The position numbers were made by a program, and so were the translations under genes. This document shows, one piece after another, positions 18,695 through 38,744 of a DNA stretch of 45,833 bases. The notes beneath the pieces are model-generated. The model worked only from the letters and a program-made list of their open reading frames with translations. It searched no databases and was not told the origin of the DNA. Every line of letters starts with the position of its first letter. Positions within the stretch are counted from its first letter, which is position 1. The stretch is from an uncultured Selenomonadales bacterium (GTDB lineage: Bacteria > Bacillota > Negativicutes > Selenomonadales > Selenomonadaceae): NCBI GenBank assembly GCA_946407095.1, contig CAMJMR010000018.1:1-45833 (forward strand), in the 5' to 3' direction.

Positions 18695-18827
18695 ATTTTT
18701 AAACTTGACACACTCGCCGGCCGCTTTAAAAGCGGCTGAACAGTTAGCGCGATTCAAAGTCCGACATTTTCAACGAATCGCCGCGCTTTGACCCTCACGG
18801 GGATTTTTAAACTTGACACACCCGCCG
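18695..18827 (+). mobile_element. Small palindrome-ended element splitting the kptA promoter
   Basis: The palindrome GCCGCTTTAAAAGCGGC (18720-18736) starts an insert of about 83 bp. The 25-nt host stretch containing TTGACA is present on both sides: 18695-18719 and 18803-18827, one mismatch. The inner text (GAACAG-TAGCGCG, GTCCGACA, TCGCCGCG) is shared with the elements at 22024 and 29258. Confidence 0.7.
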
Positions 18828-22012: not shown

Positions 22013-22137
22013 AAAAATCCCCGGCCGCTTTAAAAGCGGCGGAACAGATAGCGCGCCGTGCCGTCCGACAACTTCAACCAACACCCGCGCCGATACGAAA
22101 TGCATGCGCATTTCTAGCCTCATAAAAAAAATCCCCG
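22013..22137 (+). mobile_element. Small palindrome-ended element beside the aspA terminator
   Basis: The palindrome GCCGCTTTAAAAGCGGC (22024-22040) begins it, and the hairpin GAAATGC-ATGC-GCATTTC lies at 22097-22114. The 11-mer AAAAATCCCCG flanks it at 22013-22023 and 22127-22137. The second copy is part of the aspA terminator stem. Confidence 0.65.
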
Positions 22138-29168: not shown

Positions 29169-29221
29169 ATTTTACGAGCAAACGATTATGGCGAAGCCCG
29201 TCAGCTTCAAAAAATTTTTTC

Positions 29222-29401
29222 GGAGGTAAAAACTTTTGGATTCAATAAAAATTCGCGGCCGCTTTAAAAGCGGCTGAACAGTAAGCGCGCCGTGCCGTCC
29301 GACACTTCAAACGTTATCGCCGCGTTCATACGCAACGCATGCGCATTGCTAGTTTCACAAATTTTGGAGGTAAAAACTTTTGGATTCGATAAAAATTCGC
29401 G
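29222..29401 (+). mobile_element. Small palindrome-ended element at the uvrA start, with duplicated start region
   Basis: GGAGGTAAAAACTTTTGGAT plus the next 16 nt occurs at 29222-29257 and again at 29366-29401 (one mismatch), each with ribosome site and TTG start. Between them is a 108-bp insert that begins with the palindrome GCCGCTTTAAAAGCGGC (29258-29274) and ends near the hairpin GCAACGC-ATGC-GCATTGC. The upstream start reads into the insert and stops after 14 codons. Confidence 0.75.
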
Positions 29402-34460: not shown

Positions 34461-35423
34461 TTATGCCAAGACACGAGCCAGACGCATGAATTCGGGATTG
34501 AGTTGCTTTTTGTTATTGACGGCGTCGTGCAGGTTGATTGAGACGACGTGCCCGCGATTGAAACCGAAAACTATATCGCTCAAGCCCGAAATGAGCGCAA
34601 GTGCCGCGTGTTCGCCGAGACGGCTTGCGTTGACGCGGTCGATAACCGTCGGCGAGCCGCCGCGCTGAATGTGTCCGAGTTTGGAAACGCGCGTGTCGAG
34701 CCCCGTCTTTTCGGCGATTGCCTTGCCGATTTCGTGACCTTTGCCCGCGCCTTCAGCCACAACGACCAGTATATAACGCTTGCCCGCATCATAGGCCTCT
34801 TTCATTTCTTCGCACATTTCGTCGATGTCGTATTCTTCTTCGGGGACGAGAATGTATTCCGCGCCGCCCGATATGCCCGAAACCATGGCGAGCCAGCCGC
34901 TGTTGCGCCCCATGACTTCAAGGACGATGGTGCGGCGGTGAGCCGAGGCGGTGTCGCGCAATTTGTTAATCGCGTCGATAATCGTGTTCGCCGCCGTGTC
35001 GCAACCGATTGTATATTCCGAGCCCCAAACGTCATTGTCTATCGTGCCGGGCAAGCCGACAATCGGGATACCCGTTTCTTGACTCAAGATTGACGCGCCG
35101 CGCAGTGAGCCGTCGCCGCCGACAACTACCAAGCCTTGAATGCCTCTGTCGACCAGATTTTTGTAGCCGAGCATACGGCCTTCGGGCGTAGCGAAGCGTT
35201 TGCAACGAGCCGTGCCCAAGAACGTGCCGCCGCGCTGAATGATGTCGGCAACATCCTTCGACTGCATTTCGAACATTTCCTCGTCGAGCATCCCGTGGTA
35301 ACCCCCGCGAATACCCCAAACGCGAACGCCCATATGAAGAGCTGTGCGTGTGACGGCGCGAACTGCCGCGTTCATGCCGGGGCTGTCCCCTCCGCTTGTC
35401 ATTATTGCTATACTTTTCAACAT
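34461..35423 (-). CDS. pfkA: ATP-dependent 6-phosphofructokinase
   Basis: 320-residue glycolytic enzyme, fructose-6-phosphate to fructose-1,6-bisphosphate. Features are TSGGDSPGMNAAVR at the N-terminus, the ATP loop GGDGSLRG, GLPGTIDND with the catalytic Asp, and MGRNSGW. Length and motifs fit the bacterial allosteric type. GGAGGGG lies about 9 nt before ATG 35423. Confidence 0.97.
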   Translation of the reverse strand: MLKSIAIMTSGGDSPGMNAAVRAVTRTALHMGVRVWGIRGGYHGMLDEEMFEMQSKDVADIIQRGGTFLGTARCKRFATPEGRMLGYKNLVDRGIQGLVVVGGDGSLRGASILSQETGIPIVGLPGTIDNDVWGSEYTIGCDTAANTIIDAINKLRDTASAHRRTIVLEVMGRNSGWLAMVSGISGGAEYILVPEEEYDIDEMCEEMKEAYDAGKRYILVVVAEGAGKGHEIGKAIAEKTGLDTRVSKLGHIQRGGSPTVIDRVNASRLGEHAALALISGLSDIVFGFNRGHVVSINLHDAVNNKKQLNPEFMRLARVLA

Positions 35424-35490
35424 AACCGAATCCCCTCCTGCCGAAATACCCTCAATCGGCGTCGACGCGCCGACAAATCTTTCCGCGCCA

Positions 35491-35518
35491 ATGATAGCAT
35501 AAATTTTTTGATTTGCAA
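35491..35518 (-). promoter_or_regulatory. Promoter of pfkA
   Basis: On the minus strand, TTGCAA (35518-35513), 16 nt, TATCAT (35496-35491). Confidence 0.5.
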
Positions 35519-35556
35519 ATATCGCGGGGCGGGCGCGGCGGAAAAATTTTTCTTCA

Positions 35557-35586
35557 TTGACAGCGGAAAAACGAATCTGATATTAT
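35557..35586 (+). promoter_or_regulatory. Promoter of the HAD-purE-purA run
   Basis: TTGACA (35557-35562), 18 nt, TATTAT (35581-35586), divergent from the pfkA promoter. Confidence 0.6.
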
Positions 35587-35626
35587 TTTCGCGGACAACG
35601 GACGAGAGGATTGGAGGTGTCGGCTT

Positions 35627-36280
35627 ATGAAACGCGGCGCGATTTTCGATATGGACGGCACGCTTTTCGACACGGAAAAACTTTATCGGCAGGCGTGGCT
35701 CGACGTGGCGGAAGAATTCGGTCAGGAAAGGAATGACGACCTTCCGACGGCGATAAGCGGCACGAACATGGGCGAGGCGTCCTTGCAAGTCATAAGGCGG
35801 TTTTATCCGAACATGGACGCCAAGGCCTATCTTGCCCGCGTGCTTGCAGAAGTCAATGCGGCTGCCGAGCGGAAATTGGAGCTTATGGCGGGCGTCGAAG
35901 AAATTTTGGCGTTCTTCAAGGCGTCGGGCGTCGTTATGGCTGTGGCGAGCAGTGCGCCCGTTGCGGTTATCGAAAGGAACTTGACCAAGGCGAACCTGCG
36001 CGGCTGCTTTGAAGTTTTGGTGGGCGGCGACATGGTTAAGAACAGCAAGCCCGCGCCCGATATCTTCCTGCTTGCCGCCGAGCGATTGAACCTTGCGCCG
36101 AGCGATTGCTACATTTTCGAGGACAGCTTGAACGGTATCAGAGCGGCGGCGGCATCGGGCGGCGCAGCTATCATGATTCCCGACACCGTGCAACCCACTG
36201 ACGACATAAAACGAATCTGCGCGGCTGTTTTCAACGATTTAAACGAGGCACGACGGGCGATTAAGGAGGGACGCTTATGA
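35627..36280 (+). CDS. HAD-family phosphatase, beta-phosphoglucomutase-like
   Basis: 217 residues. The nucleophile motif is DMDGT with D8. The cap-domain, SSAPVAVIERNL and the acidic EDSLNGIRAA motif are all present, so the enzyme should be an active small-phosphate hydrolase or mutase. The substrate is unknown. GGAGG about 12 nt before ATG. Its TGA stop overlaps the ATG of the broken upstream purE start (ATGA at 36277), showing the original coupling to purE. Confidence 0.85.
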   Translation: MKRGAIFDMDGTLFDTEKLYRQAWLDVAEEFGQERNDDLPTAISGTNMGEASLQVIRRFYPNMDAKAYLARVLAEVNAAAERKLELMAGVEEILAFFKASGVVMAVASSAPVAVIERNLTKANLRGCFEVLVGGDMVKNSKPAPDIFLLAAERLNLAPSDCYIFEDSLNGIRAAAASGGAAIMIPDTVQPTDDIKRICAAVFNDLNEARRAIKEGRL

Positions 36281-36446
36281 AGGTTGCAATAATCATGGGG
36301 CAACGTGACGTTGCATCCAGATAGCGCGCTGTGTCGTCCGACGACTTCAGCCAGTCGCCGCGCCGATACGAAATGCCTACGCATTTCTAGTTTCATAAAA
36401 TTTTTTTGGAGATGATTCACTGAATGAAAGTTGCAATAATCATGGG
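36277..36446 (+). mobile_element. Small palindrome-ended element at the purE start, with duplicated start
   Basis: The 23-nt purE start occurs at 36277-36299 (following AAGGAGGG, overlapping the HAD stop) and again at 36424-36446, one mismatch. Between them an insert of up to 124 bp begins with GCAACGTGACGTTGC (36300-36314) and has the hairpin GAAATGC-CTAC-GCATTTC at 36370-36387. From the first start the frame reads MKVAIIMGQRDVASR and stops. Confidence 0.75.
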
Positions 36447-36903
36447 CAGCGACAGCGATTGGGGCGTCATGAAGGCGGCAGTCGACACGTTGAAAAGTTT
36501 CGGCGTCGATGTGGAGCTGACGGTTGCTTCGGCGCACCGCACACCCGATAAGGTTCACGACTTCGTTAAAAATTCGTCCGCGCAGGTTTTCATTGCGGCG
36601 GCGGGTATGGCGGCTCATCTTGCGGGCGTCGTGGCGAGTTTGACGACCAAGCCCGTTATTGGCGTCCCGATTAATTCCGAGCCCTTCAAAGGCCTGGACT
36701 CATTGCTTAGCACTGTGCAAATGCCCGGCGGCATTCCCGTAGCGACAATGGCAGTCAACGGCGCGAAAAATGCCGCGCTCTTCGCTACGGAAATTCTTGC
36801 CCTTCAAGACGACGTGCTTGCCGAAAAACTTTCCGCTTACCGCAAGCAAATGGCGGAAGACGTTGAGGCTAAAGACAGAAAGCTTAAGCAAACCGCTTGC
36901 TGA
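36424..36903 (+). CDS. purE: N5-carboxyaminoimidazole ribonucleotide mutase
   Basis: 159 residues; purine synthesis, N5-CAIR to CAIR. Features are IIMGSDSDW at the N-terminus with the substrate-binding Ser-Asp, ASAHRTP with the catalytic His, and AAGMAAHLAGVVAS. The translated copy of the start is the second one (ATG 36424, GGAG 12 nt upstream). The 3' end is also duplicated: the current C-terminus reads AKDRKLKQTAC, and a remnant with AKDKKLKEALL lies 162 nt downstream. Confidence 0.95.
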   Translation: MKVAIIMGSDSDWGVMKAAVDTLKSFGVDVELTVASAHRTPDKVHDFVKNSSAQVFIAAAGMAAHLAGVVASLTTKPVIGVPINSEPFKGLDSLLSTVQMPGGIPVATMAVNGAKNAALFATEILALQDDVLAEKLSAYRKQMAEDVEAKDRKLKQTAC

Positions 36904-37050
36904 TATTAAAGTTTCGATTAACTTCAAGCGCGGCAATAACGTTCAAAGTATCGGATGTCATGGCGCGTTATCTGGATGCAACGTCACGTTGCTTCCGCTT
37001 ACCGCAAGCAAATGGCGGAAGCGATTGAAGCTAAAGATAAAAAACTTAAG
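36831..37050 (-). mobile_element. Small palindrome-ended element at the purE 3' end, with duplicated gene end
   Basis: A 58-nt stretch of purE (36831-36888) is repeated at 36993-37050 with 7 differences. The insert between (36889-36992) lies in opposite orientation to the one at the purE start, its palindrome GCAACGTCACGTTGC (36978-36992) abutting the second copy. Complemented, it shares GCATCCAGATAACGCGC with that element. The downstream remnant still overlaps the ATG of the next gene (TATGA). Confidence 0.7.
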
Positions 37051-37061
37051 GAGGCTTTACT

Positions 37062-37418
37062 ATGAATACCAGAACTCATGAAATCATTCGCGAGTACATC
37101 GGCGTTTTGACGCACCAGGCTTTGAATCGCGAATTGACCTGGACAACTGCCGTCGGCGACATGGAATATCGCTACATCATCAAAGAAATTTTGCCCGACG
37201 GCTCCGAAGGCAGAGATTTGCTCGGCGTTTCCTATCGTATGCGCTCCGTCGACAGCGTCGACCTCACAATCAACGGCGAAACCTTCCGCACGCGCAACAA
37301 ACCTATCATCGAACGCGTCGGCATGCTCTTCCGTATCATCAATTACGAGAAAAAAGACAACGTTATCAGCGACAATACCATTAAATTCATGCGCAAATAC
37401 GTCAACGAGAACAGATAA
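37062..37418 (+). CDS. Conserved hypothetical protein between purE and purA
   Basis: 118 residues, no signal peptide or membrane helix, mixed alpha and beta (YRYIIKEILPDGSEGRDLLGVSYRMRSVDSVDLTINGETF). Not recognised. AAGGAGG 8 nt before ATG, provided by the duplicated purE end. Its position suggests co-transcription with purE and purA; no function is proposed. Confidence 0.65.
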   Translation: MNTRTHEIIREYIGVLTHQALNRELTWTTAVGDMEYRYIIKEILPDGSEGRDLLGVSYRMRSVDSVDLTINGETFRTRNKPIIERVGMLFRIINYEKKDNVISDNTIKFMRKYVNENR

Positions 37419-37460
37419 GGAATTATTTCCTAAAAATCGACCGAAAGGAGACTTTTTTCT

Positions 37461-38744
37461 ATGTCAACGGTGGTTATTAGCGGCGCGCAGTGGGGCGACG
37501 AGGGTAAAGGCAAAATCGTCGACTATTTAGCCGCGCAGGCTGACACGGTTGTCAGATTTCAGGGCGGCAGCAACGCGGGACACACAGTTTCCGTCGGCGG
37601 CGAAGAATATAAGCTCCGCCTCCTGCCGTCGGGCATTTTGTACAAGGGTACGACCTGCGTTATCGGCAACGGCGTCGTTTTAGACCCGCAATGTCTGCTT
37701 GAAGAACTCGAAAACATGCAAAAACGCGGAATCGACACGTCAAACATCAAAATTTCCAATCGCGCTCATGTCGTTATGCCGTGGCACAAACTTTTCGACG
37801 AATTAGGCGAAAATCTGCGCGGCTCAAACAAAATCGGCACGACAAAACGCGGAATCGGCCCTTGCTACATCGATAAGGCCGACAGAATCGGCATTCGCGT
37901 CTGCGACCTCATCGACCGCGAAGAATTCGCCCAAAAAGTTAAAAACCTCGTCGCTATCAAGAATTTGATTCTGCAAAACGTCTATAATCACGCTCCGCTT
38001 GACGCCGAAGCAATTATCCGCGAATATCAAGCCTATGCCGATAAAATTCGCCCGTTCGTCTGCGATACCATTACTTTGCTCAACGATCAAATCGATTTAG
38101 GCAAAAAAATCCTCTTCGAGGGCGCGCAGGCCACTATGCTTGACATTGACTACGGAACTTACCCCTATGTTACGTCAAGTCACCCGATTTCAGGCGGCGT
38201 CGGCATTGGCGCGGGCGTCGCGCCCAAAAAAATCGATAAAGTTGTCGGCGTCGTCAAAGCTTACTGCACCCGCGTCGGCGAAGGCCCCTTCCCTACCGAA
38301 CAACTCAACGAAATAGGCGAAAAACTACGCAAGGCAGGTCACGAATTCGGAACTGTCACCGGAAGACCGCGCAGAACCGGTTGGCTTGACGCTTGCGTCG
38401 TAAAATACGCCGGAAAACTCTCCGGAACCGATTTTATGGCCGTCACGCGCCTTGATATCCTTGACGACTTCGACGAAATTAAAATGTGCACCGCTTACAA
38501 GCTCGACGGGCAGGTTATCAACGAAATTCCCGCCAGCTTGAAAGTTTTGGCGCAAGTTGAGCCTGTTTACGAAACTTTTGCCGGTTGGAAGACCGATATC
38601 AGCAAAATCCGCCGCTATGAAGACTTGCCCGCCAATGCACGCAAATATCTTGAGCGTATGGCGGAAGTTACCGGAATTTCGCTCGGAATTGTCAGCGTCG
38701 GCGCGAATCGCGACCAGACGATTGTCCTTGCAGATATTTTTTGA
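37461..38744 (+). CDS. purA: Adenylosuccinate synthetase
   Basis: 427 residues; IMP plus aspartate plus GTP to adenylosuccinate. GDEGKGK at 12-18 is the GTP-binding loop; conserved GSNAGHTV, TTKRGIGP and VTGRPRRTGW follow. AAGGAG about 10 nt before ATG 37461. Terminated by a strong hairpin. Confidence 0.97.
   Translation: MSTVVISGAQWGDEGKGKIVDYLAAQADTVVRFQGGSNAGHTVSVGGEEYKLRLLPSGILYKGTTCVIGNGVVLDPQCLLEELENMQKRGIDTSNIKISNRAHVVMPWHKLFDELGENLRGSNKIGTTKRGIGPCYIDKADRIGIRVCDLIDREEFAQKVKNLVAIKNLILQNVYNHAPLDAEAIIREYQAYADKIRPFVCDTITLLNDQIDLGKKILFEGAQATMLDIDYGTYPYVTSSHPISGGVGIGAGVAPKKIDKVVGVVKAYCTRVGEGPFPTEQLNEIGEKLRKAGHEFGTVTGRPRRTGWLDACVVKYAGKLSGTDFMAVTRLDILDDFDEIKMCTAYKLDGQVINEIPASLKVLAQVEPVYETFAGWKTDISKIRRYEDLPANARKYLERMAEVTGISLGIVSVGANRDQTIVLADIF

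Follow-up and report, generated by a model that had tools for sequence, protein, structure and literature searches.

Two insertions of one small non-autonomous mobile element family, each adjoined by a direct target duplication, bracket purE in a rumen Selenomonadaceae genome

The stretch of DNA analysed here (45,833 nucleotides in all, referred to below as the window) belongs to a metagenome-assembled genome (MAG) of a rumen bacterium of the Selenomonadaceae (G000; 2.6 Mb in 101 contigs, 89% complete), and the closest named relatives of its purE are also Selenomonadaceae MAGs, mostly ruminant-derived. The purE region is laid out as follows:

35627..36280, + strand, HAD-family hydrolase gene (ORF list; Pfam PF13419, E=1.2e-31)
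36277..36299, + strand, 5'-terminal 23 nt of purE, outer copy (insertion 1, target copy T1), 22/23 identical to 36424-36446
36300..36423, + strand, element copy 1, with terminal palindrome (36300-36314), conserved 19-mer end (36300-36318), body and tail
36424..36903, + strand, intact purE (AIR carboxylase; Pfam PF00731, AIRC, E=1.3e-61)
36831..36888, + strand, 3' end of purE, inner copy (insertion 2, target copy T2), 88% identical to 36993-37050
36889..36992, - strand, element copy 2, in opposite orientation, with terminal palindrome at 36978-36992
36993..37050, + strand, 3' end of purE, outer copy (insertion 2, target copy T1), running to the original purE stop
37062..37418, + strand, gene after purE, 118 aa (ORF list; no Pfam match at E 0.001)

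The 118-aa gene lies between purE and purA, and the relatives compared have an identical gene start behind their purE.

Both ends of purE are present twice, at 36277 and 36424 and at 36831 and 36993, as the original prediction had stated, although the repeated ends are real without being exact: ATGAAGGTTGCAATAATCATGGG at 36277-36299 recurs at 36424-36446 with one mismatch (96% identity), and the 58-nt 3' end at 36831-36888 is a diverged copy, 88% identical to that at 36993-37050. In both inserts the palindrome GCAACGTNACGTTGC stands exactly at the junction with one duplicated copy, a claim that the coordinates bear out, since GCAACGTGACGTTGC (36300-36314) and GCAACGTCACGTTGC (36978-36992) directly adjoin the outer copies; a 42-nt inverted repeat common to the inserts (36300-36341 and 36951-36992, 88%) agrees with the opposite orientation proposed for them. 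The stop of the HAD gene overlaps the start of the outer purE copy (ATGA) and the original purE stop, kept in the outer 3' copy, overlaps the start of the next gene (TATGA), so that both predicted overlaps can be read directly. That purE was once tightly coupled on both sides is also seen in many relatives, which show the HAD-purE overlap and a purE running into the next gene with no element present; aligned with its neighbours there, purE has a single 5' end and a single 3' end closely before the next gene. Element 1 starts with GCAACGTGACGTTGCATCC and has an AT-rich tail with a Shine-Dalgarno-like GGAG right before the inner purE start codon. The inner purE starts in the inner target copy (36424-36446) and lacks the original last codons, its final codons and stop lying in the tail of element 2. 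purE carries two insertions of one non-autonomous mobile family, each with an adjoining direct target duplication.

The family is evident at the scale of the genome. Within the window the exact palindrome occurs only as the purE pair, and allowing up to three mismatches gives five matches against 3.6 expected, therefore only exact matches are meaningful; in the whole genome there are 113 occurrences of the exact 15-mer and none of its reversed control. The element is a non-coding repeat of about 40-130 bp, roughly 100 bases, present in more than 100 copies. A direct repeat of the left flank ending exactly at the base before the palindrome was detected (threshold score 10) in 47 of 97 distinct copies, and in 0/97 mismatched pairs, in which left flanks were paired with the right side of another copy (maximum score 9). 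The 97 are the distinct copies extracted out of the 113, from a source listing of 100 of the 111 places of a 16-mer; the 47 include one locus with tRNA-gene similarity (L180), tandem arrays with a repeating unit (L148, L151, L002, L156, L129, L130, L137) and elements nested in elements (L133, L151, L167). Duplications shorter than about 10 nt are invisible to all detectors applied, and two copies counted as lacking one (L014:2940 and L015:2931) are cut by the locus end.

The second target copy starts at the point where the element stops. Duplications of the exact-15-mer type measure 21-127 bp with a median of 41 in 27 clean cases, taken at a gapped score of 20 with eight array loci left out; the gapped detector is laxer at its threshold of 13, a score that 3 control pairs reached, with none reaching 20. 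With the second palindrome type described below included, the range is 11-127 bp. Long duplications, from which the original prediction argued for an unusual mechanism, have bacterial precedent (see below). A divergence gradient along the duplication, apparent at first sight, was dropped, as the mismatch rate is 9-12% across the first 60 nt. Target and element often form regularly spaced arrays together; L148, L114, L151, L156 and positions 80-515 of contig C8 of genome G021 are tandem arrays with up to five evenly spaced palindromes. At both L148 and L114 a single target carries two different element bodies, whose repeat units are nearly identical.

Concerning copies without a duplication, these make up 50 of the 97 at the detector threshold. 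By a rough pattern, a duplication is found in just 1/18 members of subfamily 3. Part of this deficit may be due to composite elements such as L010, which have another palindrome upstream. A longer composite subfamily, seen at 270 and 26665 in the window and at L128, L143, L153, L160 and L162, has the variant GCAACGTGAACGTTGC or the normal palindrome, then a CCCGCTTT..AAAGCGGG hairpin and AAAGAAAGTAG; it is to this subfamily that the 1/18 just given refers.

The two ends of the element behave differently. One is exact, consisting of the 15-bp palindrome plus ATCC (positions 16-19), with each base kept in 149-152 of 152 copies. The target base before it is G in 112, A in 34, C in 5 and T in 1 of these copies, i.e. 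G or A in 146/152. The opposite ends of duplicated elements share no common sequence evident by eye, and fall where the target sequence restarts, 11-127 bp upstream. At this variable junction the target matches the element's own continuation, as known from other copies, over a mean of 2.0 nt against 0.35 nt for other targets used as control, with 8 of 9 informative cases above control after exclusion of 3/12 in which the target resembles the element; the version before that exclusion gave 2.4 against 0.31 nt in 9 cases. Two cases are doubtful (window 29258 and L142), where the match may stem from a shared leader or an element remnant, and leaving them out gives 1.3 against 0.36 nt with 6/7 above control. 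A first overlap test for microhomology was messy and uninterpretable. Taken together, these figures are modest evidence for microhomology at the variable junction.

Targeting to hairpins was considered and set aside: of 90 sites, 18 have a hairpin stem terminating right at the junction, against 1-12, typically about 5, for the other offsets from -80 to -1; the signal is weak and comes partly from insertion beside other repeats. There is no excess of RNA folding on either strand in 75 copies (mean z about -0.2), and an Rfam covariance search of window positions 35000-38500 gave a best E of 3.1.

The same body is also found behind a second terminal palindrome, GCCGCTTTAAAAGCGGC, which had likewise been named in the original prediction. 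Copies of this type show duplications of 11-49 bp in 10/23 cases, against 0/108 in the control, and several of the 13 without one are the reverse strand of the composite subfamily and hence not of that type. The window holds these members:

18720..18802, + strand, GCCGCTTTAAAAGCGGC family member with a 25-nt flank duplication (18695-18719 and 18803-18827, 1 mismatch)
22024..22126, + strand, GCCGCTTTAAAAGCGGC family member with an 11-nt flank duplication
29258..29361, + strand, GCCGCTTTAAAAGCGGC family member with a 40-nt flank duplication (29218-29257 and 29362-29401)

The 40-nt duplication of the last one spans the start of a putatively uvrA-like ORF at 29380, as happens at purE. A third terminal palindrome, GGTTACTTTTAAAAAGTAACC, was observed before the same type of body at L159 (1440), upstream of purE at L030 and upstream of an aroC-like gene at L228 and L233.

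Comparison of filled with empty sites places the duplications in time. Six tests, picked for conserved genes from 36 prepared, were carried out against relatives G065, G082 and G069 (17 loci), and at 6/6 sites these have one target copy and no adjoining GCAACG palindrome. At the aroC-like site (L006) two of the three relatives carry a family member with the third palindrome further upstream. At L146:5572 the duplication is 100% identical within the genome and relatives differ in the same stretch. The duplications are the derived state, and the proposal that one element inserts with a long target duplication holds well beyond purE, the same anatomy recurring at dozens of sites. In eight related genomes, duplications accompany 15/30 and 13/30 copies, both samples being the first listed places per genome and without a mismatched-pair control of their own; by genome, the second sample divides into G013 6/7, G077 3/7, G085 3/8 and G071 1/8. 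Element bodies are genome-specific and the end sequence is the same. In apparently orthologous genes of G077 (L244) and G085 (L258), elements with differing bodies follow the same GTCGGCGG, with no duplication detected at either.

The purE 5' site itself has a more complicated history, since the inner purE leader, TTTTTTGGAGATGATTCAC, is not a copy of the outer leader and G013, another species, has a different element body at exactly the same purE nucleotide, with the corresponding 23 nt duplicated (L198 / L269). The inner leader is common to G013 and G077, and G077 has it without an element. In G000 as in G013, the inner 23-mer is closer to the outer one of its own genome than to the 23-mers of the other genome. 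Such matches within a species would favour separate insertions into a preferred target, and the common inner leader would favour shared ancestry or exchange. In the three relatives closest in the downstream gene and purA (85-89% DNA identity), HAD and purE are separated by about 800 bp of other sequence.

Across the genus, 38 of 66 genomes (G000 included) carry the 19-mer end, copy numbers ranging from 0 to 107, whereas it was found in 0/397 other genomes of the phylum; the shorter 15-mer turns up a single time among 23 same-class genomes from other families. The 19-mer is also present in 33 IMG/VR stretches (L272-L304) from many metagenomes, some of them near-duplicates, with up to four copies per contig (e.g. 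L304 at 3213, 4514 and 6671 and L297 at 722, on one contig). Viral copies with ATCC follow G or A in 38/39 cases and some are open in frame inside ORFs; 45 further viral hits with a 17-mer but without ATCC are mostly one conserved coding sequence and not the element. A flank duplication was found in 0/40 viral copies, and ten viral loci gave no Rfam match at the gathering threshold. A 101-base element query had no match among phage records, and its matches to six plasmid records were weak and partial. From the genus-limited 19-mer in host genomes, the viral 19-mers and the weak plasmid matches, therefore, the burst looks genus-bound, with wider relatives of the end sequence. Elements lacking a flanking duplication, which the original prediction had named as evidence against itself, are therefore found in part, namely the 50/97 in the own genome and 40/40 among the viral copies.

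The best reading, which we hold to be rather more probable than not, is a non-autonomous mobile family with one-ended, template-switch-like insertion. In such a scheme the 3' end of nicked or replicating target DNA would leave the target at G or A and switch to a small piece of RNA or single-stranded DNA as template, with the palindrome as its physical end. A variable length of this template would be copied from the palindrome end, after which the new strand would re-anneal to the target by a few matching bases, tens of bases behind the exit point, and synthesis would resume on the target, leaving the stretch in between duplicated. An insertion near a gene end would thus yield one complete copy and one remnant of that end and, as one copy stays complete, insertions into packed genes would survive. 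The machinery could be host replication or repair, or an unrecognised nickase or polymerase. The exact palindromic end, the variable end with microhomology and the variable duplication fit a template-switching strand. Several observations count against it: the 50/97 copies without duplication, together with subfamily 3 (1/18), G071 (1/8) and the viral copies (0/40); and the recurrence of the same target boundaries with different bodies (L148 and L114; purE in G000 and G013), as a random second junction does not predict them. Moreover, the microhomology rests on 9 cases and the first overlap test was messy, there is no excess RNA folding, and no driver gene was identified. It is conceivable, if still doubtful, that a tiny palindrome-ended nucleic acid, with no dedicated transposase or reverse transcriptase, repeatedly serves as the wrong template in replication or repair; this would be an undescribed form of DNA spread, with one precise end, one microhomology end, up to about 130 bp duplicated and more than 100 copies per genome, and the same end is found in viral contigs from other habitats.

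A fixed end opposite a variable one, together with duplications of varying length, is also the footprint of target-primed reverse-transcription elements, and a bacterial SINE-like process, in which a nicked target 3' end primes on an RNA ending in the palindrome and staggered nicks yield the variable duplications, would account for the fixed end, the variable (truncated) end and the variable-length duplications observed. The search for a reverse transcriptase, made with the single family model PF00078 in 37 and 18 genomes, renders it unlikely: there is no match in G000, G013, G015 and G019, nor in the high-copy genomes G071 (99% complete, 43 copies), G085 (98%, 61) and G077 (95%, 52), and none in G065, while the zero-copy genomes G012 and G080 have four and three. 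G021 (57 copies of the 15-mer) does have one match. Presence of PF00078 has no link to copy number, a reverse transcriptase was accordingly rejected as the driver, and a canonical one does not seem to be needed. The resemblance to eukaryotic SINEs and LINEs in ends and variable duplications contrasts with the lack of PF00078 in G000, and the target duplications of SINEs and LINEs are typically shorter than those here. REP elements are tied to a Y1 transposase (PF01797); unlike in REP/RAYT systems, it has 0 matches in G000 (89% complete) and in 19/22 same-genus genomes, with partial matches in G002, G007 and G013, and as none was found in G000 it was discarded as the driver. Nor did an all-against-all BLAST of 2306 reading frames near the copies give an autonomous partner: the 25 largest groups, checked by eye, held nothing transposase-like, in loci reaching 1.2-1.5 kb from most copies, a reach at which a distant gene would be missed.

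It would be quite improbable that the elements are miniature transposons moved by an ordinary DDE transposase with unusually long duplications, like the IS1202 group. The terminal palindrome and the target base preference would suit such a transposon, and PMC10132070 describes the IS1202 group as transposase-encoding, with paired inverted ends and 16-28 bp duplications, and a related ISAjo2 type of 1.5 kb with 24-26 bp ends. The likeness lies in the unusually long duplications; here there is a single conserved end, no matching inverted end and a spread of 11-127 bp, and two-ended transposition is disfavoured because the second conserved end is absent. We also consider it improbable that the duplicated ends mark where imported DNA was joined, i.e. 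that a foreign purE fragment brought the element along and was attached homologously at one side and by illegitimate joining at the opposite one. The inner 5' leader, differing from the outer one and common to G013 and G077, and the 12% difference between the 3' copies would be expected of it, but the two copies of other duplications in the genome are 100% identical even where relatives differ in that stretch, as at L146:5572, and the 23-mers match more closely inside each genome (G000, G013) than across the two. An assembly artefact is hardly credible, even though the named relatives are nearly all MAG records, G000 is fragmented and incomplete and several arrays lie at contig ends, given the same end in 38/66 genomes with genome-specific bodies, the gene-preserving structure and the empty sites in relatives.

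With one-ended, template-switch-like insertion as the favoured reading, the family can be set beside known systems. We know of no conserved end in the restriction-modification insertions of Helicobacter pylori. The precedent for long duplications is the insertion with long target duplication of restriction-modification genes in that species (Nobusato et al. 2000, via PMC3154945, PMC1643837 and PMC3031569), where, as these papers relate it, close-genome comparison revealed long variable duplications and a novel mechanism was suggested. Both cases have long variable flanking duplications and single-target empty sites in relatives; the insert there is associated with restriction-modification genes, whereas the present family is non-coding, measures 40-130 bp, ends precisely in a palindrome and has more than 100 copies. 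MITEs and REP/REPIN sequences (PMC10969869; see also PMC2817692 and PMC3116915) are likewise short, non-coding, palindromic, of high copy number and found in tandem arrays, but the two terminal inverted repeats and the fixed-length duplication of a MITE of a DDE transposon are both absent here. Rickettsia palindromic elements (PMC10969869) are palindromic repeats of about 150 bp tolerated inside genes as in-frame fusions, whereas at the gene-end sites examined here the gene is kept by its duplicated end. MITEs, REP sequences and the Rickettsia repeats all resemble the present family in length. The family fails to fit MITE, REP/RAYT and IS1202 by their defining features and reverse-transcribed elements by enzyme, and in the open-access literature searched there was no description of it and no paper with the letters of the palindrome. 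We rate the family as small, mobile and non-autonomous, with a footprint of insertion that is unusual.

The family combines a high copy number with a clear and unusual footprint: an exact end opposite a variable one, and duplications, long and of varying length, that spare gene ends. It offers dozens of natural insertion events, some with empty sites, and therefore the origin of insertion with long target duplication, an old question, can be studied. At purE it shows mobile DNA entering overlapping operon genes without killing them.
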